A stretch of DNA of 64,000 nt from Streptomyces griseochromogenes (lineage in GTDB: Bacteria; Actinomycetota; Actinomycetes; Streptomycetales; Streptomycetaceae): NCBI RefSeq assembly GCF_001542625.1, contig NZ_CP016279.1:6014001-6078000 (forward strand). The letters run 5' to 3'. The notes below the pieces were generated by a model. It was not told where the DNA came from and made no database searches. It saw nothing but the letters and a program-made list of their open reading frames with translations. Numbering within the stretch: position 1 is the first letter of the stretch; the number at the start of each line of letters is the position of its first letter. Positions 17,730-49,998 of this stretch are shown piece after piece. The position numbers and the translations under genes were made by a program.

Positions 17730-18605
17730 ATGGCTCAGGCCGAACTCCATCCGGGCGGCGTCGAATCGGAGAACCATCCGTGGAAGATCCGCCTCGTCGA
17801 ACACCCGAAGCGATTTGAATCGGCGCAGTTCACCGCCGCCAAGAAGACGGCACACGAAATCCTTCGCAAGATGAACGACGCCGACCTGCCCTACGGGCCA
17901 CGGCCTGTCGATGCGGGGCCCGAGCACGCCGAGCACTGGGAGATGCACCATGGCGGCAGCCTGTGGGTCATGGGCTCTCACGGCTGGCTGATGTACCGCG
18001 CCCGGGTGGGCATCGAGTGGAGCATGCAGTTCTGCGCCGACCCCGACAAGGTCGAACGGCTCCGGCAGGAGGCCGCCGAGTTGGTCGACGCCTTCCCCCG
18101 CACTCTGCCCGCGCTGGCGGAACTGGGTTACGACCGCGCCGAGGAACTGCTGCGCACGCCGATCAAGGACGCCGACGGGGTCGAGGCCTGGACCGACTCC
18201 CTGTTCAACGCGTGCGTGCCGCTGAGCCGCGAGAACCACCAGGGGATCCTTCCCAAGGTGCCCGGTGAACACCACTACCCCTGGCCGGTGAAGGGTGCGG
18301 ACTTCGTGCGCTACGACGACTTCCAGCTGTGGGTGACGCTGCCCGACGGCACCCATGGCGCCGTGGCTCCGGTGGACCGCCGCGGCTCCGGCGACGGACA
18401 CGTCCGCCTGGCCTTCGCCCCCGAGGGCAGCGCCGCCGCGGCGACGCTCGCGGAGGCGCAGGACCGTGGACTGATGGCCGTTCTGCCGGCGAACAGCCCG
18501 GTCGCGCTGCAGGCCTACTCCCGGCAGATCTCCCCCGACCGGCGCACCGCCTCCGGTCCTCTGTCGGCCGAGGCGTCACGGCACGGCCGCCATCGCTCCG
18601 GCTAG
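17730..18605 (+). CDS. Uncharacterised Streptomyces protein (possibly DUF6424)
   Basis: A 291-residue soluble protein of unknown function. GAGGAGG lies 6 nt upstream of ATG 17730. The body is rich in aromatic residues (HWEMHHGGSLWVMGSHGWLMYRARVGIEWSMQF), and the C-terminal ~35 residues are low-complexity and probably disordered. No catalytic motif is evident. It is followed after 15 bp by the DUF2235 gene on the same strand and probably shares its transcript. The DUF6424 label is from memory of similar actinobacterial proteins and is unverified. Confidence 0.75.
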   Translation: MAQAELHPGGVESENHPWKIRLVEHPKRFESAQFTAAKKTAHEILRKMNDADLPYGPRPVDAGPEHAEHWEMHHGGSLWVMGSHGWLMYRARVGIEWSMQFCADPDKVERLRQEAAELVDAFPRTLPALAELGYDRAEELLRTPIKDADGVEAWTDSLFNACVPLSRENHQGILPKVPGEHHYPWPVKGADFVRYDDFQLWVTLPDGTHGAVAPVDRRGSGDGHVRLAFAPEGSAAAATLAEAQDRGLMAVLPANSPVALQAYSRQISPDRRTASGPLSAEASRHGRHRSG

Positions 18606-18620
18606 CGAAGGAGCGCGGGC

Positions 18621-19745
18621 ATGCCTCGTGCGATCGTCGTCTGCCTCGACGGGACGGGCAACCAGGTGGGCGCGAGTCACCCCACCAATGTGGTCAGGCT
18701 GATGGAGATGCTGGACGCGGACGATCCGGCCCGGCAGCTGGTCTACTACGACCCCGGCGTCGGGACCATGTCGTCGGCCACCGCCCACGGCCCGGTGGGC
18801 CACCGGTTCTCCCGCCTGTGCGGCCTCGCCTTCGGCAGTGGGATGCGGACCAACCTCGCCGAGGCGTACACGTACCTCATGGGGCACTGGCAGCCGGGTG
18901 ACCAGGTGTATGTGTTCGGATTCAGCCGCGGCGCCTACACCGCCCGGGCGCTCGTCGGCATGCTGAACAAGCCCGGTCTCATGCGCCCGGGCTCGGAGAA
19001 CCTGGTGCCGTACGCCGTGGCGAAGTACGCCTTCAACCACGACATCGACGAGAGCGAGCGGGAGGTCGCCCGGTTCTCGCACACGTTCTGCCGGCGCACC
19101 GAGAACGAACCGCTGTGGGAGGACGTCAAGCGGAACGATCCACGGCAGGTCTCGCACCACGCCCTGCCGGTGACCTACCTCGGCGTCTGGGACACGGTGA
19201 AGGCGGCCGGTCTGCTGCGCCTGGGCAATCTGCGGTGGCCGTACACCCACGAGTTGCCGAACGCGGCCCGCATCCGGCACGCCGTGTCACTCGACGAGAC
19301 CCGCCGCCCTTACCACGAGTTCCTGGTGAAGCCCCGTCCCGCGCCGCGTCAGGGCACCGCGGAGGAGGTCTGGTTCGCCGGGGTGCACTCCGACGTCGGC
19401 GGCACCTTCGCCCATGCCGAGGGCGCGCCCCTGCTCTCCGCGATCCCACTGAAGTGGATCATCGACGGTGTCACCGAGGACCTGGTGTTCCGCCCCCAGG
19501 CCTACGGCACCACCTGCGCGATCACCGAGGAATTCGCCGGCGCCCCGGTCCACGACAACGGCTCCCTGTGGATCCTCGCGGGCCGGCGCTCCCGTCCCCT
19601 GCCGAACGACGCCGTGCTGCACGCCAGCGTCAGGCTGCGGCGGGAGCGGGATCCCCGGTACCGTCCGGATCTGCCCGGTCCGCAGGAGCCGGGCCGCTGG
19701 GCGGACCCCGACTGGACCAAGCCGGTCCCGCCGCCGGGCGGTTGA
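18621..19745 (+). CDS. DUF2235 alpha/beta-hydrolase-like protein
   Basis: This 374-residue protein starts with the family hallmark IVVCLDGTGNQVG and contains the nucleophile elbow GFSRGAYTARALVG (GxSxG) near 109-122, with Asp and His candidates in WFAGVHSDVGG. DUF2235 proteins are predicted serine hydrolases. Some members are phospholipase effectors of type VI secretion systems; others are housekeeping proteins of unknown role. No signal peptide or membrane segment is seen. It is co-directional and close to the gene at 17730. The substrate cannot be inferred. Confidence 0.85.
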   Translation: MPRAIVVCLDGTGNQVGASHPTNVVRLMEMLDADDPARQLVYYDPGVGTMSSATAHGPVGHRFSRLCGLAFGSGMRTNLAEAYTYLMGHWQPGDQVYVFGFSRGAYTARALVGMLNKPGLMRPGSENLVPYAVAKYAFNHDIDESEREVARFSHTFCRRTENEPLWEDVKRNDPRQVSHHALPVTYLGVWDTVKAAGLLRLGNLRWPYTHELPNAARIRHAVSLDETRRPYHEFLVKPRPAPRQGTAEEVWFAGVHSDVGGTFAHAEGAPLLSAIPLKWIIDGVTEDLVFRPQAYGTTCAITEEFAGAPVHDNGSLWILAGRRSRPLPNDAVLHASVRLRRERDPRYRPDLPGPQEPGRWADPDWTKPVPPPGG

Positions 19746-19926
19746 GAGCCGTCAATAGCACAACTCCAGTGGCACGTCTTCTTGAACAGGCTTAGCGTAG
19801 AAATTGACTCCTCGCTCACACCCCACCCTGATGGGCTGTGAGTTCACCGTCGCCCGACCGTGGGTGATCAATCCCGGATTCGGTTCGCCGCGGCGTCATG
19901 GGACTGAAGGAAGGAAGCGAGCCACC

Positions 19927-20646
19927 ATGGTCGCTCTGTCCAACGTCCGGTTCGGCAAGACCAACGAGGACGTACGCACCGTACAAAGAGCCCTGATCGC
20001 ACGGGGCCACCAGATCCCGGACGGAGCCACCGGCACCTTCGGCGAACAGACCAGAGCCGCCTACCGCGCCGAGCAGCTCGCCCAGGGGTTCACCGGAGCG
20101 GACGCCGACGGCATCCCGGGCTGCCGCTCACTCAGCGCCCTCGGCCGCCACGCCGGCTTCGCCGTCGACTGCACGGACGCCGCGCCTCCGGTGCGTGCGG
20201 GCAGGCTCACCCTCGGTCAGGTCACGTACCACGACCCCAACGACGCGTTCGGGGAGGCCGCGATGCGGCGGTACGCCGACACGGCATGCCACCTGACCGG
20301 CATGGACCCGGAGTTCGGCGTCCCGGCACTGGTCACGATCTCCAGGCGGGAGTCCGCCTACAACAACCCCAGGTTCCGGGTGAACGACACGGATTCCAAC
20401 GCGCGGGGCCCCCTTGCCGCCGACGGGCACCGGCAGAACTGTTCCCGCGGCGCCACCCAGTGCATTCCCACCACATTCGCCGCGTTCCACCAGGCGGGCA
20501 CGGCGACGACGCCCTACGACGTGGTCGCCGACATGTGCGCGACGGTCAACTACGTGCGCGACAGATACCACGTCAACCAGTCGGGCTCGAACTTCACCGC
20601 CCGCGTGCAGCAGGCAGACCCGAACCGGCCTCCGCACGGTTACTAG
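19927..20646 (+). CDS. Peptidoglycan-binding / lytic transglycosylase-like protein without signal peptide
   Basis: A 239-residue protein. An N-terminal peptidoglycan-binding domain (about 4-58, TNEDVRTVQRALIARGHQIPDGATGTFGEQTRAAY) is followed by an SLT-type lysozyme fold. The family-1 motif RRESAYNNP carries the catalytic Glu and GATQCIPTTFAAFH is the conserved G-x-x-Q-x-x-P block. The ribosome-binding site AAGGAAGG precedes ATG 19927. There is no secretion signal, which is odd for a cell-wall enzyme. This resembles phage tail or injected effector enzymes. Export by a holin-like, contractile or lysis route is possible but not shown. Confidence 0.82.
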   Translation: MVALSNVRFGKTNEDVRTVQRALIARGHQIPDGATGTFGEQTRAAYRAEQLAQGFTGADADGIPGCRSLSALGRHAGFAVDCTDAAPPVRAGRLTLGQVTYHDPNDAFGEAAMRRYADTACHLTGMDPEFGVPALVTISRRESAYNNPRFRVNDTDSNARGPLAADGHRQNCSRGATQCIPTTFAAFHQAGTATTPYDVVADMCATVNYVRDRYHVNQSGSNFTARVQQADPNRPPHGY

Positions 20647-20717
20647 GAACGCCGTTCCGGCCGCTGCGACGGCGTCGGCCGCACACCGCCAGGGGTTCGG
20701 GCCCGAGGAGCCGAGTC

Positions 20718-21431
20718 ATGACGCAGCACAACCCTTTCCCTGTCCCGGAGGAACCGGGACTGTTGGTGCCGGTCGGGGTCGCGGGCTGGCAGAACGGATA
20801 CGACGCCGGTATCAGCTCGCCGCCCGGCGTACCCCGTACACCGCTCGTCCGCAGCCTGGAATACGCGCAGGCCTGGGCGCAGGGCGCTGTCGCGGGCAAC
20901 GCCGACGGGCGGACCGAGGGGTGGCGGTGGGCGTACTTCAAGGGAGCCGTCCGGCCCGAGCCCAAGGACGCGGCGAACGGTCACTACGGCCCCCAGAACA
21001 GCGGCGAACCGGGGCGGACGGGCAGCGGAGCCTTCGCCCGGAGCTGGCCGGCAGTCGGTGAACTGCCCCTTCAGGTGATGCTGGCGCAGTTCGCCGAGGG
21101 GGACAGCGACGAGAACGGTCTCACCGGCAGGATCCTCGCCCGGGCCTGCGCCGACAAGGGCATCCCGCGCCTGTACCTGGCGGTCGGACTGAATTCCTCC
21201 GGACCCGTGCGGGAAGCAACCGGCGATCCGTTGAACGACGCCGGTTACTGGCACGGCACCGTGTGCGAGTCGCTGGAGGAGGCCGCGTCGGAGGCGTCCG
21301 CGCAGATGCCGCCGTCCCGTATACCGCACTTCGTGGCGCTGGTGCGGTACGCGCCGGCGGCCGAGCACCACTTCTTCGACCTCCTGCCGGCGGCCGACGG
21401 ATTCCCGCCGCACCGCGGCGGGAGCGGCTAG
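20718..21431 (+). CDS. Uncharacterised protein
   Basis: A 237-residue soluble protein behind GAGGAG, 72 bp after the transglycosylase gene. It starts MTQHNPFPVPEEP and has a GWQNGYDAG / AQGAVAGNADGRTEGW stretch of small and aromatic residues, then a helical middle and a C-terminal half with regular strand-like segments (RLYLAVGLNSSGP, HFVALVRYAPAAEHHFFDLLPA). I do not recognise the family. Its last bases overlap the stop of a small convergent gene. Confidence 0.7.
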   Translation: MTQHNPFPVPEEPGLLVPVGVAGWQNGYDAGISSPPGVPRTPLVRSLEYAQAWAQGAVAGNADGRTEGWRWAYFKGAVRPEPKDAANGHYGPQNSGEPGRTGSGAFARSWPAVGELPLQVMLAQFAEGDSDENGLTGRILARACADKGIPRLYLAVGLNSSGPVREATGDPLNDAGYWHGTVCESLEEAASEASAQMPPSRIPHFVALVRYAPAAEHHFFDLLPAADGFPPHRGGSG

Positions 21432-45965: not shown

Positions 45966-45980
45966 TGGAAACGGTTTCCA
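45966..45980. promoter_or_regulatory. CRE-like palindrome upstream of the methyltransferase
   Basis: TGGAAAC-G-GTTTCCA, a perfect 7+1+7 palindrome 62 bp before the methyltransferase start. It resembles the TGnAAnCGnTnnCA sites bound by LacI/GalR-family regulators. No LacI gene is in the window. Confidence 0.65.
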
Positions 45981-46001: not shown

Positions 46002-47207
46002 TCACCCCAAGGTGGTGAGGACGGATAACAGACGGTCGATCTCCTCGGTGCTGTTGTATACGTGCAGGCTCACCCGCACCGAGTCGCTCTTCTCCCCCGC
46101 GCCGCCCTGGCAGTGGCTGTCGGACCGGACCATGAAGCCGTGGCTGAAGAGGATGAAACCCAGATCGCCGGAGTCGATGTCGCGGTGCCGGAAGGTGACG
46201 ATGCCCTGGCGCCGTTGAACGGGCGAGTCGGCGGCCAGACTCGTCCGGCAGCCGAGGACCTCGTAGGCGTCGAGGTGGCGCAGCGCCTCGGTGAGCCGGG
46301 CCGCCAGGGCCACCGTCCACCGCTCGATCCGTTCGGTCCCGGCACCGTCCAGCCAGTCCAGCGCCGCGACCAGCGAGGCGATACCGACGGTGTTGGGTGT
46401 GCCCGACCAGCCGCCCGGGGCGAATTCCGGTCCGCGCGCCTGGCGCGCCCAGACGGCTCCCGAACCGGGCAGGGCCATGGCCTTGTGTCCCGAGAAGACG
46501 ACGAAGTCGGCGTCCAGACGTGACAGCTCCACCGGCAGATGGCCGACGCTCTGGGCGGCGTCCAGGCAGATCACGGCGTCCGGCCCGACCGCCCGGCGGA
46601 TGCGGTGGATGTTCATGTCGCCGCCGTAGACGTGGTGGACGTGGGTGACGGCGACGCATCTGGTGCGGGGACCGGCGATGTCCGCCAACGCGGTGTGGTC
46701 GTAGTCTCCCGAGGCCTGCTGGTAGGGCATGGGCAGGAGCTTGACGTGGACGCCTTGACGGGCCAGTTGCCGTCGGGCCTCCTCCCAGGGCGAGATGTTG
46801 GCCTGGTGGTCGGCGACGGGTACGACGATCTCGTCACCGTCGGCGAGGAACCGGGGAAGCCAGTCCCGGCCGACGGTGCGCAGTCCCTCGGTGGCGCCGC
46901 TGGTGAAGTGCACGCTCGACCGCTCGGGGGCCGGGTCGCCCAGGAACCGCTTGACCCGGTCGCGGGCCTGCTCGACCAGGGTCGTGGTCCGGTTGGCCCA
47001 GGTGTAGGTGCCGCGCCCGGCGTTGGCGTTGGTCGTGGTGAGGTAGGTCTGGACGGCGTCGAGTACGGCGCGTGGCTTCTGGGCGGTGGCCGCGCTGTCG
47101 AGGTAGACCAGGTCGGGGTGCCCGGTGACGATCGGGAACTGGGCGCGCAGGGCCTGCTGCCAGGCCCTCAGCTCCTCGGTCGCGGCGGCATGGTCGGGTA
47201 CGGCCAC
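46002..47207 (-). CDS. Class V aminotransferase / cysteine desulfurase-like enzyme
   Basis: A 401-residue PLP enzyme of the SufS/CsdA type. VYLDSAATAQKPRAVLDAV is at about 34-52. The PLP-stacking His is in PVADHQANISPWEEARR, the cofactor Asp is in CLDAAQSVGH, the Schiff-base Lys is in FVVFSGHKAMALPGSGAVW, and RVSLHVYNSTEEIDRLL is C-terminal. A Cys sits in the C-terminal loop SDSHCQGG, where desulfurases carry the persulfide-forming Cys. It begins 5 nt after the rhodanese-fusion gene. It might load sulfur from cysteine onto the rhodanese, or act as an ordinary aminotransferase or lyase. No suf/isc partners are present, so bulk iron-sulfur assembly is unlikely. Confidence 0.82.
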   Translation of the reverse strand: MAVPDHAAATEELRAWQQALRAQFPIVTGHPDLVYLDSAATAQKPRAVLDAVQTYLTTTNANAGRGTYTWANRTTTLVEQARDRVKRFLGDPAPERSSVHFTSGATEGLRTVGRDWLPRFLADGDEIVVPVADHQANISPWEEARRQLARQGVHVKLLPMPYQQASGDYDHTALADIAGPRTRCVAVTHVHHVYGGDMNIHRIRRAVGPDAVICLDAAQSVGHLPVELSRLDADFVVFSGHKAMALPGSGAVWARQARGPEFAPGGWSGTPNTVGIASLVAALDWLDGAGTERIERWTVALAARLTEALRHLDAYEVLGCRTSLAADSPVQRRQGIVTFRHRDIDSGDLGFILFSHGFMVRSDSHCQGGAGEKSDSVRVSLHVYNSTEEIDRLLSVLTTLG

Positions 47208-47212
47208 GGCGT

Positions 47213-48532
47213 TCAGTCCCGTACCAGCGGGGCGCCGGCGTCGCGCCAGGCGATGATGCCGCCGCTCAGGCTGCGGACGTCCGGGTGTCCCATCCGGGTC
47301 AGCAGCGCGGCGTAGCGGGCGGACTGCTCACCGACCGGGCAGGCGAGCAGCACCGGGCGACTGCGGCTGAAGGGCAGGCCGCCATGGAGCAGTTCCTCGA
47401 ACAGCGCGTCGACGACGTTGACCGAACCGTCGATGTGCAGGGCGGCGTAGGCGGAGGGGCTGCGCAGATCGACGACGAGAGGCCGGCCGGTGGCGATCCA
47501 CGTCCGGGCCTCGGCGACGCCGATGGACGGGGCGGCGCGTATCTCGGCCTCGGGCAGGTCGGCCGGTGAATTCCTGCGCCGGGGCCGGCCGAACAGGTCG
47601 GGGCGCCGTCGGCGGACGTAGCTCAGGTAACTCTCGACGCGGTCGCACACGATGAACACGGCTGACTGATGCTCCGTCAATTCATGCTCGATGTCGCGCA
47701 ATTGGCGGACGGTGCCGAAGTAGGCGGCGCCTCCCGTGGGGCCGGCCAGGATGCCGCAGCGGCGGTTCAGGGTCAGCATGCCCTCGATGGCGTCATCGGC
47801 GCTCACCGACTCGATCGTGTCGTAGGTGCCGGGGTCGAACAGCCCGACCTCGTGGGCTTCGTCGATGGTACGGATGCCGGGGATGAAGTCGGACTTGGCC
47901 GCGACCAGCCCGACGACCCGTACCGCGGGGTCGTGTTCGCGCAGCACCCGGGCGACGCCGGTCGAGGAACCGGCGGTGCCCACGCAGGCGATGAACCAGT
48001 CCGGTGCCCGGCCGTCCAGGTCCTTGACGATCTCCGGTCCGGTGCCGGTGAGATGGGCCTCGGTGTTGCGCGGGTTGAAGTACTGGTCGGTGTGCAGGTA
48101 GGCACTGCCGGGTTCGGACAGTGCCCGGTGGAAGAGGGTGAGCGGGTCTTCGGTGGCCGTGGGGTCGAGGCATTCGCTCTGGCCGGGGAGCTCCTCGATC
48201 TCCGCGCCGAGGAGCAGCAGGAGGTCCTTGATCTCCGGGATGCGCATCCGGTTGGTGACGCTCTTGAAGCCGAGTCCGTGCATCCCCGCGAGCACGGCCA
48301 GGGCCTTGGCGGTGTTGCCGCTGGACAGCTCCACGACCTGCCGGCCGCTGTCGTCGGCGCCGGTGAGGTGCGGGCGCGCCATGTGCCAGGCGGCCCGGTC
48401 CTTGACCGATCCGAACGGGTTGAGCAGCTCCAGCTTGGCGTACAGGTCGATGTGCCGCAGACCGTGCACGGCCGGGTCGATGCGCACCAGCGGCGTGTTT
48501 CCGATGGCGTCGGTGATGCTGTCGTACCTCAC
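47213..48532 (-). CDS. Cysteine synthase-like PLP enzyme fused to a rhodanese domain
   Basis: A 439-residue fusion. Residues about 1-310 are a type II PLP enzyme of the cysteine synthase / SbnA group (DAIGNTPLVRID, catalytic Lys in NPFGSVKDRAAWH, SSGNTAKALAVLAG, phosphate loop GTAGSSTGVARVL, GILAGPTGGAAYFG). Residues about 340-439 are a rhodanese domain (VVDLRSPSAYAALHIDGSVNV, active-site loop CPVGEQS with the Cys intact). The GTG start overlaps the stop of the decarboxylase-like gene (GTGA). Possible products are a beta-substituted alanine or a sulfur-containing amino acid. The same PLP subfamily makes diaminopropionate in siderophore pathways. Substrates are inferred, not shown. Confidence 0.85.
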   Translation of the reverse strand: MRYDSITDAIGNTPLVRIDPAVHGLRHIDLYAKLELLNPFGSVKDRAAWHMARPHLTGADDSGRQVVELSSGNTAKALAVLAGMHGLGFKSVTNRMRIPEIKDLLLLLGAEIEELPGQSECLDPTATEDPLTLFHRALSEPGSAYLHTDQYFNPRNTEAHLTGTGPEIVKDLDGRAPDWFIACVGTAGSSTGVARVLREHDPAVRVVGLVAAKSDFIPGIRTIDEAHEVGLFDPGTYDTIESVSADDAIEGMLTLNRRCGILAGPTGGAAYFGTVRQLRDIEHELTEHQSAVFIVCDRVESYLSYVRRRRPDLFGRPRRRNSPADLPEAEIRAAPSIGVAEARTWIATGRPLVVDLRSPSAYAALHIDGSVNVVDALFEELLHGGLPFSRSRPVLLACPVGEQSARYAALLTRMGHPDVRSLSGGIIAWRDAGAPLVRD

Positions 48533-49998
48533 TGCGCTCCCCCCACGGAAGTGGTCGGCCAGTACTGATCGTCCAGGCACCACCGCCACGAACCGTCGTC
48601 CTGCCAGGCGGCGATCTTGCGGCCCACGGGCCGGCGCTGGGCGCGGGTGGCGTGGAAGTCCATGCAGTAACCGGCGGTGTTCGCGAAGGCCATCAGGTCG
48701 CCGGGCTCGGGGCGGCGGGGCAGGAAGACCGTCCGCCGTGTGATGAGGTCCGTCTCCAGGCAGAGGCTGCCGAAGAGATGGACGGCGACCGGGTGTGCGG
48801 GGCCGGTGCGGGCCGCGTCCCGCGGGAGGACGACAGGATCCACGAGCACGCCGTGTTCCTCCAGGGCGATGTCGTCGGCCTTCGCCTCCAGTCGTACGAG
48901 GAGTTCCCCGCCGCTCCGCTGGGTGCGCACCTCCAGCACGGTGGCGAGGGTCAGTCCGCACTGGTCCACCAGCGCCCGCCCGGGTTCGGTGTGCAGGTCG
49001 TAGAGGTGGTCCAGCAACAGCGCGGCCAGCGGCCGGCCGTCGAAGGACGTGGCCGGACGCGCGAGCAGTTCGTCGAGGTAGCGCGCCGCGGCGACGGGCC
49101 GGTGGGCCGGGTAGAGCCCGAGCGTCCCGCGCAGCGTGCCGGCCTCGCCGCGCAGCCCGTAGCCGTACCCGCCCCAGGTCAGGGGCGGTCGGGTGCCCAG
49201 GACGGCGGCGGTGAGTTCGGTCGTGTAACGCTCCCACTGCTCGCGCTCGGCGACATAACCGACGCCGAATCCGCCACCGGCGTCCACGGCCGACGGCCGC
49301 AGTCCCCTGCTTCGGCACTCCTCCAGCACCCGCAGACAGCCTTCGAGGGCCGCCGCCTTCTCGTCGAGGCTGATGGTGTCCAGGTGACAGGCCACACCGG
49401 TGAGGTCGACGGCGTCATGGTGGCGCTCGACGGCCTCCAGGAGCGGGTCCAACTCCCGTACGGGTGAGCCGAAGCGGCTGCGCCTGCTCAGCACCCGCAC
49501 ACCGGCGGTCTCGAATCCCGACAGCCGCAACAGGACGCGGCATCGGGGCAGCGCGTGCCGGCGCACCAGAGTGGCCAGCTGTTCCAACTCGTCCCGGCTG
49601 TCGGTGCTGACGGCGACCGACGTACGAGCGGCCAGCCAGAGGAACTCCCGGTTCTTCGGGCCGGTGGCGGTGATGCGGTCGGGGGTGAAACCGGCGCCGA
49701 GAGCGTGCTGCAGCTCCTCCAGCGAGGCGACGTCCACGCCGGCGTCCGTGGCGGCCAGCCGCCTCAGCAGGGCGCTGGACCGATTGGCCTTGTGGGCGAA
49801 GAAGATCTGGCCGGAAAGGTGGTGGTCGCGGTACACCGACCGGAACCGCCGCACGTTCTCGGCGATCTGGTCGGGCACGACGACGTGCAGCGGCGAGCCG
49901 AGGGCGTCCGTGAGCGTGTGCAGCAGCCCGGGGGCCTCCAGCAGGGACCGCAGCCGCGGTTCCAGCCGCGGTTCGAGGTACAGGGGCTGCCCGCCCAT
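48529..49998 (-). CDS. Y4yA-type PLP-dependent decarboxylase-fold protein
   Basis: A 489-residue fold-type III PLP protein related to diaminopimelate/ornithine decarboxylases. The cofactor Lys is in IFFAHKANRSSALLRRL, the glycine-rich phosphate loop is in AVDAGGGFGVGY, and the C-terminal pair GSLCLETDLI and FANTAGYCMDFHAT is characteristic. The ATG at 49996-49998 has GGAGGGG 7 nt upstream; the longer frame to 50157 is not used. It is the first gene of the operon and overlaps the next. Y4yA proteins are often paired with cysteine synthase-like genes. SbnH of staphyloferrin B is a functional comparison. Substrate unknown. Confidence 0.85.
   Translation of the reverse strand: MGGQPLYLEPRLEPRLRSLLEAPGLLHTLTDALGSPLHVVVPDQIAENVRRFRSVYRDHHLSGQIFFAHKANRSSALLRRLAATDAGVDVASLEELQHALGAGFTPDRITATGPKNREFLWLAARTSVAVSTDSRDELEQLATLVRRHALPRCRVLLRLSGFETAGVRVLSRRSRFGSPVRELDPLLEAVERHHDAVDLTGVACHLDTISLDEKAAALEGCLRVLEECRSRGLRPSAVDAGGGFGVGYVAEREQWERYTTELTAAVLGTRPPLTWGGYGYGLRGEAGTLRGTLGLYPAHRPVAAARYLDELLARPATSFDGRPLAALLLDHLYDLHTEPGRALVDQCGLTLATVLEVRTQRSGGELLVRLEAKADDIALEEHGVLVDPVVLPRDAARTGPAHPVAVHLFGSLCLETDLITRRTVFLPRRPEPGDLMAFANTAGYCMDFHATRAQRRPVGRKIAAWQDDGSWRWCLDDQYWPTTSVGGAQ

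Follow-up and report, generated by a model that had tools for sequence, protein, structure and literature searches.

A probable zinc-linked four-gene unit of Streptomyces, a candidate operon for a small metal-binding metabolite

In a stretch of 64,000 nucleotides from Streptomyces griseochromogenes (contig NZ_CP016279.1, positions 6,014,001 to 6,078,000; hereafter the window), genes for three pyridoxal 5'-phosphate (PLP) enzymes, namely a Y4yA-type decarboxylase, a CysM-like enzyme fused to a rhodanese domain and a SufS-like class V enzyme (together, the trio), lie head to tail on the minus strand, followed by a gene for an S-adenosylmethionine (SAM)-dependent methyltransferase (span 49998 to 45140). 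A connection of this locus with zinc, which was missed in the first-pass annotation together with the site at 45966-45980 and was found here by site scoring and gene neighbourhood, is very probable, and a zinc-related small molecule is rather likely to be the product. An even chance is given to the reading favoured here, which is that of a Zur-linked zinc-starvation operon for a small metal-binding, most likely sulfur-containing metabolite, made without nonribosomal peptide synthetases (NRPS) or NRPS-independent siderophore (NIS) synthetases; the sulfur route taken by itself is just as finely balanced.

The comparison was based on the best 80 of 578 confirmed relatives (the named loci), which together with the window gave 81 stretches, and it supports the four genes as a real, co-inherited unit. 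The three PLP-enzyme genes were adjacent in all 80 named loci, and the methyltransferase gene adjoined them in 74. Among the six remaining loci, two (L046 and L091) end at a contig end, one (L051) has the methyltransferase 8.5 kb away, and those of Nocardiopsis (L069), Streptoalloteichus (L098) and Micromonospora (L100) do not have this methyltransferase, the last of them carrying a different one in its place. At high stringency, the fusion protein (full-length relatives), the Y4yA-type protein and the class V enzyme matched the identical 14 of 61 genomes. Linkage elsewhere, which the first-pass annotation had named as the check on its proposal of three coupled enzymes, was indeed found. The methyltransferase had a strong match in 12 of these 14 genomes, and its start was visible at all 14 loci. 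The fusion was found in 14 of the 37 same-genus genomes sampled and, at E<=1e-60, in 19 of 394 genomes of the class (4 of 137 genera), 14 of these 19 belonging to the window's genus. Distance matrices of the three trio proteins were correlated (r 0.88-0.91 over 75 loci), a figure that includes no species-tree control. A distant, Nocardia-type clade was present in three genomes, with identities of 47-49% for the fusion, about 37% for the Y4yA-type protein and 39% for the class V enzyme; one of these genomes (G081) additionally has a 71% copy.

Some individual occurrences of the unit deviate from this layout. The trio occurs on a plasmid record as well (without annotation). At L146 and L147 (genomes G351 and G343), the CysM-rhodanese gene lies in two reading frames, split in the C-terminal part of the CysM fold, which may reflect a frameshift, a sequencing error or a genuine split. 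In S. glaucescens (L034, 12652-12828), the methyltransferase gene looks truncated or broken, its match being confined to residues 1-59 and the genome lacking any strong match.

The zinc connection was seen in predicted binding sites of the regulator Zur. In the available text of one report, S. coelicolor Zur is described as binding a 15-bp 7-1-7 palindrome, tGaNNatSatNNtCa, and a 21-bp form of the actinobacterial site is given as taaTGaNAANNNTTNtCANta (PMC5472717). The site matrix used here was weighted by hand from this published consensus (PMC5472717), an earlier site score having been ad hoc. The site in the window agrees with all capital bases of TGaNAANNNTTNtCA, not with its small a/t positions. 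Within 150 bp upstream of the methyltransferase, a Zur-like site of at least 10 bits was detected in 74 of 76 cases (the 74 adjacent loci, L051 and the window), compared to 1.5 expected from random Streptomyces control stretches; the exceptions were L087 and L096. At a threshold of at least 8 bits the count became 75 of 76, as a site of L087 at -147, itself doubtful, was then included. At the level of predicted sites, zinc control of the methyltransferase thus appears well supported, presumably through binding of Zur. Strong sites were also found within 350 bp upstream of the Y4yA-type gene, both at 12 bits or more (12 of 79 loci, 1.4 expected) and at 16 bits or more (7 of 79 loci, compared to 0 of 20,000 control samples), with two sites each in L030 and L032.

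The pattern TGRNAAYSRTTNYCA occurs at five places in the 10.76-Mb genome, and its reversed control at none; as it was written after the sites had been seen, the match in the window is by construction, and the informative parts are its rarity and the site at znuA. That site immediately precedes znuA of a znuA-znuC-znuB-Fur-family operon and is adjoined by another one that scores 20.8 bits. The remaining three places (L116-L118) are near genes that could not be tied to zinc, and of the three CobW-family regions scored, one (L113) has a good site just upstream of the gene (13.1 bits). The palindrome at 45966 was also considered as a hairpin or terminator, which is held unlikely because the site in other clades loses its perfect palindrome and keeps the Zur core.

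The genes around the operon point in the same direction. Neighbour clustering placed beside it a CobW-type GTPase that is nearest to ZigA (519 bits, cut-off 600), as well as a Fur-family regulator, ZnuA/B/C-type transporter genes, a His-rich protein and a 101-residue S14. Of the 80 loci, 29 had at least one zinc-regulon gene within about 10 kb, compared to 1 of 60 random regions of 19.9 kb (Fisher 1e-7, which is not a true probability since the loci are related). Six queries were used in this search, with bit cut-offs set by us; ZnuA, ZnuB, the Fur-family regulator and the CobW-type protein were taken from the window's genome and the remaining two from other loci. The 60 control regions were drawn from six operon-bearing Streptomyces genomes and also served as controls for the comparisons of sites and of ribosomally synthesized and post-translationally modified peptide (RiPP) genes. 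In Micromonospora (L100), the trio lies between two ZnuABC-type sets.

The layout of the locus (Table 1) is that described in the first-pass annotation, from the Y4yA-type gene through the CysM-rhodanese and class V genes to the methyltransferase gene. The GTG start of the CysM-rhodanese gene overlaps the TGA stop of the Y4yA-type gene (GTGA), 5 bp separate the fusion gene from the class V gene, and a further 97 bp lie between the latter and the methyltransferase gene. For the locus comparisons, gene starts were set mechanically. Pfam assigned Orn_Arg_deC_N to the Y4yA-type protein (105 bits), PALP (176 bits) and Rhodanese (58 bits) to the fusion, Aminotran_5 to the class V enzyme (251 bits) and Methyltransf_25 to the methyltransferase (59 bits), and none of the four proteins reached an NCBIfam cut-off among the matches listed (up to 25 per protein). 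By sequence, the closest solved structures were diaminopimelate decarboxylases, O-acetylserine sulfhydrylase B, SufS and SAM-dependent methyltransferases, respectively. An AlphaFold model of the fusion (pLDDT 48.9, pTM 0.35) was not used.

Table 1. Genes, domain and predicted site of the four-gene unit (window positions)
Feature	Position	Strand	Remarks
Y4yA-type fold III PLP decarboxylase gene, 489 amino acids	48529..49998	-	K70, H205, C413, Y444 kept
CysM-like fold II beta-replacement domain and rhodanese fusion, 439 amino acids	47213..48532	-	4-bp overlap with Y4yA-type gene
Rhodanese domain of the fusion, residues 340-431	47240..47515	-	CPVGEQS loop; Cys398 codon 47339-47341
SufS-like class V PLP enzyme, 401 amino acids	46002..47207	-	Lys242, Cys366 (codon 46110-46112), Arg361, Arg378 kept
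Zur-box-like site TGGAAACGGTTTCCA	45966..45980	.	76 bp upstream of methyltransferase start
Class I SAM-dependent methyltransferase with own Zur-like site, 254 amino acids	45140..45904	-	adjacent to trio in 74/80 loci

Residue conservation was compared among sequences covering at least 85% of the query. All 84 near and all 3 distant sequences of the fusion share K44, G72, N73, K76, R221, C398, G401 and S404. We take K44 to be the PLP lysine and G72-N73 to belong to the SGNT substrate loop, as in CysM and CysK. By these invariant residues the fusion resembles CysM/CysK; its scores lie below the cysteine synthase cut-offs (cysKM, 169 vs. 344 bits; CysM, 166 vs. 413 bits) and below that of the SbnA model TIGR03945 (137 vs. 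350 bits). Its rhodanese domain exceeds the Pfam gathering score (22.2 bits), and the CPVGEQS loop is intact and contains the invariant active-site Cys398, as had been described. The class V enzyme retains H134, D216, Q219, H241, K242, R361, C366 and R378 throughout (82 near and 3 distant sequences), and residue 365 varies (57 H, 24 L, 1 Q). When aligned to SufS, it has the corresponding lysine, histidine, two arginines and loop cysteine (presumably the SufS His for H134, the PLP Lys for K242, the two Arg for R361 and R378, and the mobile-loop Cys for C366) and scores below the curated SufS cut-off (259 vs. 475 bits). The reported cysteine in its persulfide loop is also present, as Cys366 is matched in the alignment to the cysteine in 'HHCAQP' of SufS 5j8q, which we assume to be the SufS persulfide cysteine. 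The Streptomyces enzymes do not have an insertion of about 20 residues that is present in SufS and in the Nocardia-type relatives. The Y4yA-type protein has K70, H205, C413, E415 and Y444 in every sequence compared (81 near, 3 distant), with E338 found in 78 of 81 and K at the position of R341 in the three distant ones; the label itself is based on about 30% identity over about 90% of the length to annotated plasmid Y4yA proteins, no curated Y4yA model being among the matches listed. Because they are invariant in the near and distant sequences compared, both sulfur-handling cysteines (Cys398 and Cys366) are judged to be under strong constraint, which fits, without proving, a desulfurase-to-rhodanese relay.

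From the protein families we infer every chemical step, the substrates, the product and its export in the reading favoured here. L-cysteine would give up its sulfur to the SufS-like enzyme, which would hold it on Cys366 as a persulfide and pass it to Cys398 of the fused rhodanese. From an activated serine-type substrate such as O-phosphoserine, the CysM-like domain would form an aminoacrylate bound to PLP, and either the sulfur itself or a nucleophile made with its help would then be added at the beta carbon of this intermediate. The Y4yA enzyme might then decarboxylate the product to a 2-substituted ethylamine of the aminothiol type, which the separately Zur-linked methyltransferase could tailor. 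Unlike related plasmid clusters, the unit has a desulfurase and a rhodanese and no cyclodeaminase. The simplest reading may be that sulfur takes the place of nitrogen in the beta-replacement and that decarboxylation then yields an aminothiol-type ligand with a donor set suited to zinc. The unit would thus represent a metallophore-type module for beta-replacement and decarboxylation that has its sulfur carrier built in and is joined to a zinc switch. That it stands for a new class of zincophore pathway, independent of NRPS and NIS synthetases, in which rhodanese-carried sulfur goes straight onto aminoacrylate before decarboxylation to an aminothiol-type zinc ligand, is put forward tentatively. 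Sulfur transfer from IscS to ThiI and from IscS to RhdA is reported in the accessible part of PMC8614886; the unit shares with such SufS/IscS-to-rhodanese relays a desulfurase and a putative rhodanese acceptor, both with their Cys kept, but carries the rhodanese as part of a beta-replacement enzyme and has zinc-linked genes. Coelibactin of S. coelicolor is likewise a Zur-controlled putative Streptomyces zincophore; however, it is an NRPS product, and this operon contains no NRPS gene.

Several observations weigh against the favoured reading. The genomes behind the neighbour counts are related, so the counts are not independent. At a threshold of at least 8 bits, the signal upstream of the Y4yA-type gene is weak (17 of 79 loci, 8.2 expected), and most loci have no strong site there. 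In the window, no clear Zur-like site precedes the trio (the best one at its promoter scores 2.1 bits), and the site that is present lies downstream of the trio, ahead of the methyltransferase; in L051, the site is found with the methyltransferase, both 8.5 kb from the trio. The Nocardia-type loci (L140-L142) have no good Zur-like sites near their genes and carry instead a protein with a heavy-metal-associated (HMA) domain. No constant exporter or importer was recognised by eye among the 45 largest neighbour families, and the plasmid-type multidrug and toxic compound extrusion (MATE) exporter had matches in 0 of 81 stretches. In addition, sulfur supply for cysteine itself would be futile, and therefore the acceptor must be something else.

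The best-surviving alternative, which is considered unlikely, is an amine chemistry as in staphyloferrin B or [S,S]-ethylenediamine disuccinate ([S,S]-EDDS): the CysM-like enzyme would add an amino acid nitrogen to the aminoacrylate, the Y4yA enzyme would decarboxylate the adduct to an ethylenediamine-type aminopolycarboxylate zincophore, and the rhodanese and class V enzyme would have a side job (deamination, regulation or repair). Precedents exist for such a route. According to the available text of PMC12414870, SbnA of the staphyloferrin B pathway uses O-phosphoserine and glutamate, and SbnH is a PLP decarboxylase; the SbnA/SbnB/SbnH system of S. aureus is thus similar in having a fold II beta-replacement enzyme of the cysteine synthase superfamily and a fold III PLP decarboxylase. 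[S,S]-EDDS is described in the accessible parts of PMC6103462 and PMC4993170 as a Zur-controlled zincophore of neither NRPS nor NIS type, so that its genes in Amycolatopsis japonicum, compared by description only, resemble the unit as a Zur-linked, NRPS/NIS-independent zinc chelator pathway of actinomycetes. The pair of a Y4yA-family decarboxylase and a cysteine-synthase-family enzyme is also common to plasmid-borne clusters of M. avium, Rhizobium and Agrobacterium, where genes for an ornithine cyclodeaminase and an exporter of the MATE type accompany it (with iron ABC genes nearby in the two rhizobial records) and the whole looks like a metallophore module, judging from its gene content; the adjoining cysteine synthase-like and Y4yA genes that the first-pass annotation named from a rhizobial symbiotic plasmid were seen among these annotated relatives. 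Their Y4yA proteins are about 30% identical to that of the unit, and no rhodanese or class V enzyme appears among the annotated features there, the annotation being incomplete; a Sulfitobacter Y4yA has a setting without these genes. A dapdiamide-synthase-like ATP-grasp gene behind the trio in Streptoalloteichus would also suit the amine route.

Against this alternative, and in contrast to staphyloferrin B, the window has no SbnB-type or NIS gene, the genome's PF02423 (4 places) and PF04183 (8 places) matches all lying outside it, and the trio adds a rhodanese fusion and a SufS-like enzyme and is linked to zinc instead of iron. An ornithine-cyclodeaminase-like match was found in 1 of the 81 stretches (L050) and an NIS match in none, the queries being the NIS genes of the window's own genome. 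The SbnA model remains far under its cut-off, CysM models scoring higher, and the invariance of the rhodanese and desulfurase cysteines even at 37-49% identity is hard to square with a side job. Membership in a diaminopropionate/staphyloferrin pathway was therefore rejected (SbnA score; no SbnB-type or NIS gene in the window). Of the two products suggested by the first-pass annotation, the diaminopropionate building block in the SbnA/SbnB sense was thus not borne out, whereas the broader metallophore idea gained from the Zur-like sites and zinc-gene neighbourhoods. Its suggested search for co-occurring NRPS or NIS genes returned no NIS match and one NRPS gene, in L090, the other loci not having been searched for NRPS genes.

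Somewhat less probable than the amine route is an intracellular zinc-sparing or thiol response, in which persulfide, cysteine-like or aminothiol molecules would buffer or ration zinc in the cell and no chelator would be secreted. This would explain why no constant transporter stood out among the neighbour families, and the zinc-sparing and zinc-allocation genes nearby (the 101-residue S14, the His-rich protein and the GTPase nearest to ZigA) are consistent with it; however, a decarboxylase and a methyltransferase suggest a dedicated end product, and ZnuABC-type importers are in the neighbourhood too. That Zur controls the methyltransferase alone and the trio is an unrelated pathway sharing the place is very improbable: the siteless trio promoter of the window, the arrangement in L051 and the many loci with no strong site ahead of the Y4yA-type gene speak for it, but the excess of strong sites upstream of that gene, doubled in L030 and L032, and the position of the trio among ZnuABC-type genes in L100, where this methyltransferase is missing, speak against it.

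To our knowledge, few zincophores are known, and still fewer of their pathways. If the favoured reading is true, many Streptomyces have a compact four-gene unit that produces a zinc ligand through transfer of carrier-bound sulfur; it would be missed by genome mining based on NRPS and NIS genes, and with it one could test cleanly how actinomycetes acquire or ration zinc when starved of the metal. If the product is intracellular, a PLP/sulfur pathway would still be added to the actinobacterial zinc response. No description of the trio unit was found in a literature search, which is weak evidence of novelty, as it covered mostly titles and the starts of abstracts, with most subscription papers outside its scope.

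Two groups of loci have an extra gene with the trio. In Streptoalloteichus (L098, 12542-13783), an ATP-grasp ligase gene lies directly 3' of it (PRK07206, 344 bits, above the cut-off) and is related to dapdiamide A synthase (DdaF, 192 bits, cut-off 840). The extra Nocardia-type protein, of about 430 amino acids, is encoded between the class V and Y4yA genes and has a C-terminal HMA domain (L142, 5022-6311); Pfam was run on L142 only and recognised the domain there, evidently related proteins are present inside all three clusters, a CxHC motif was seen in relatives, and database names of Nocardia relatives are heavy-metal-associated or copper chaperone. Because these two proteins accompany the trio, its product may be used further, with metal as the common theme, and in the Nocardia-type loci the metal may be copper.

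The neighbours of the unit in the window, namely genes for a major facilitator superfamily transporter, two TetR regulators, an Rce1-like protease and a two-component pair, were considered as members of the unit and rejected, as they fall outside the 45 largest neighbour families; the sole window neighbour among these is the family of the response regulator, present in 4 stretches.

The NRPS gene of L090 (carrier, condensation and AMP-binding domains) has a 26.6-bit Zur-like site 98 bp upstream (18422 and 18520-21335) and likely belongs to a separate zincophore cluster, judging from these features. The trio has a RiPP gene set of the thiazole/oxazole-modified microcin (TOMM) type as its neighbour in 6 of 80 loci (compared to 0 of 60 controls for such a set), at L053 13650-18725 and at the start of L072, L085, L088, L090 and L094 (further stretches L213-L217). 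It comprises E1-like (weak match), YcaO, SagB-like and CydD-like ABC proteins and a hydrolase that is CocE-like by eye. A conserved open reading frame of 37-41 amino acids ending ...HDSASHSNALVENPFE... lies behind a 16.9-18.1-bit Zur-like site in 5 of 5 searchable genomes, and the set may encode a zinc-controlled His/Ser RiPP; no paper combining YcaO, zinc, Zur and Streptomyces was found in the literature search. In the place of the methyltransferase, Nocardiopsis (L069, 2898-3347) and a related genome (L144, 7648-8097) have an AhpD-like gene of the carboxymuconolactone decarboxylase family (Pfam run on L069 only), preceded by an 11.2-bit Zur-like site. A GNAT acetyltransferase family was also detected beside the operon in 19 of the 80 loci (e.g., L060, 134-685), compared to 0 of 60 controls.

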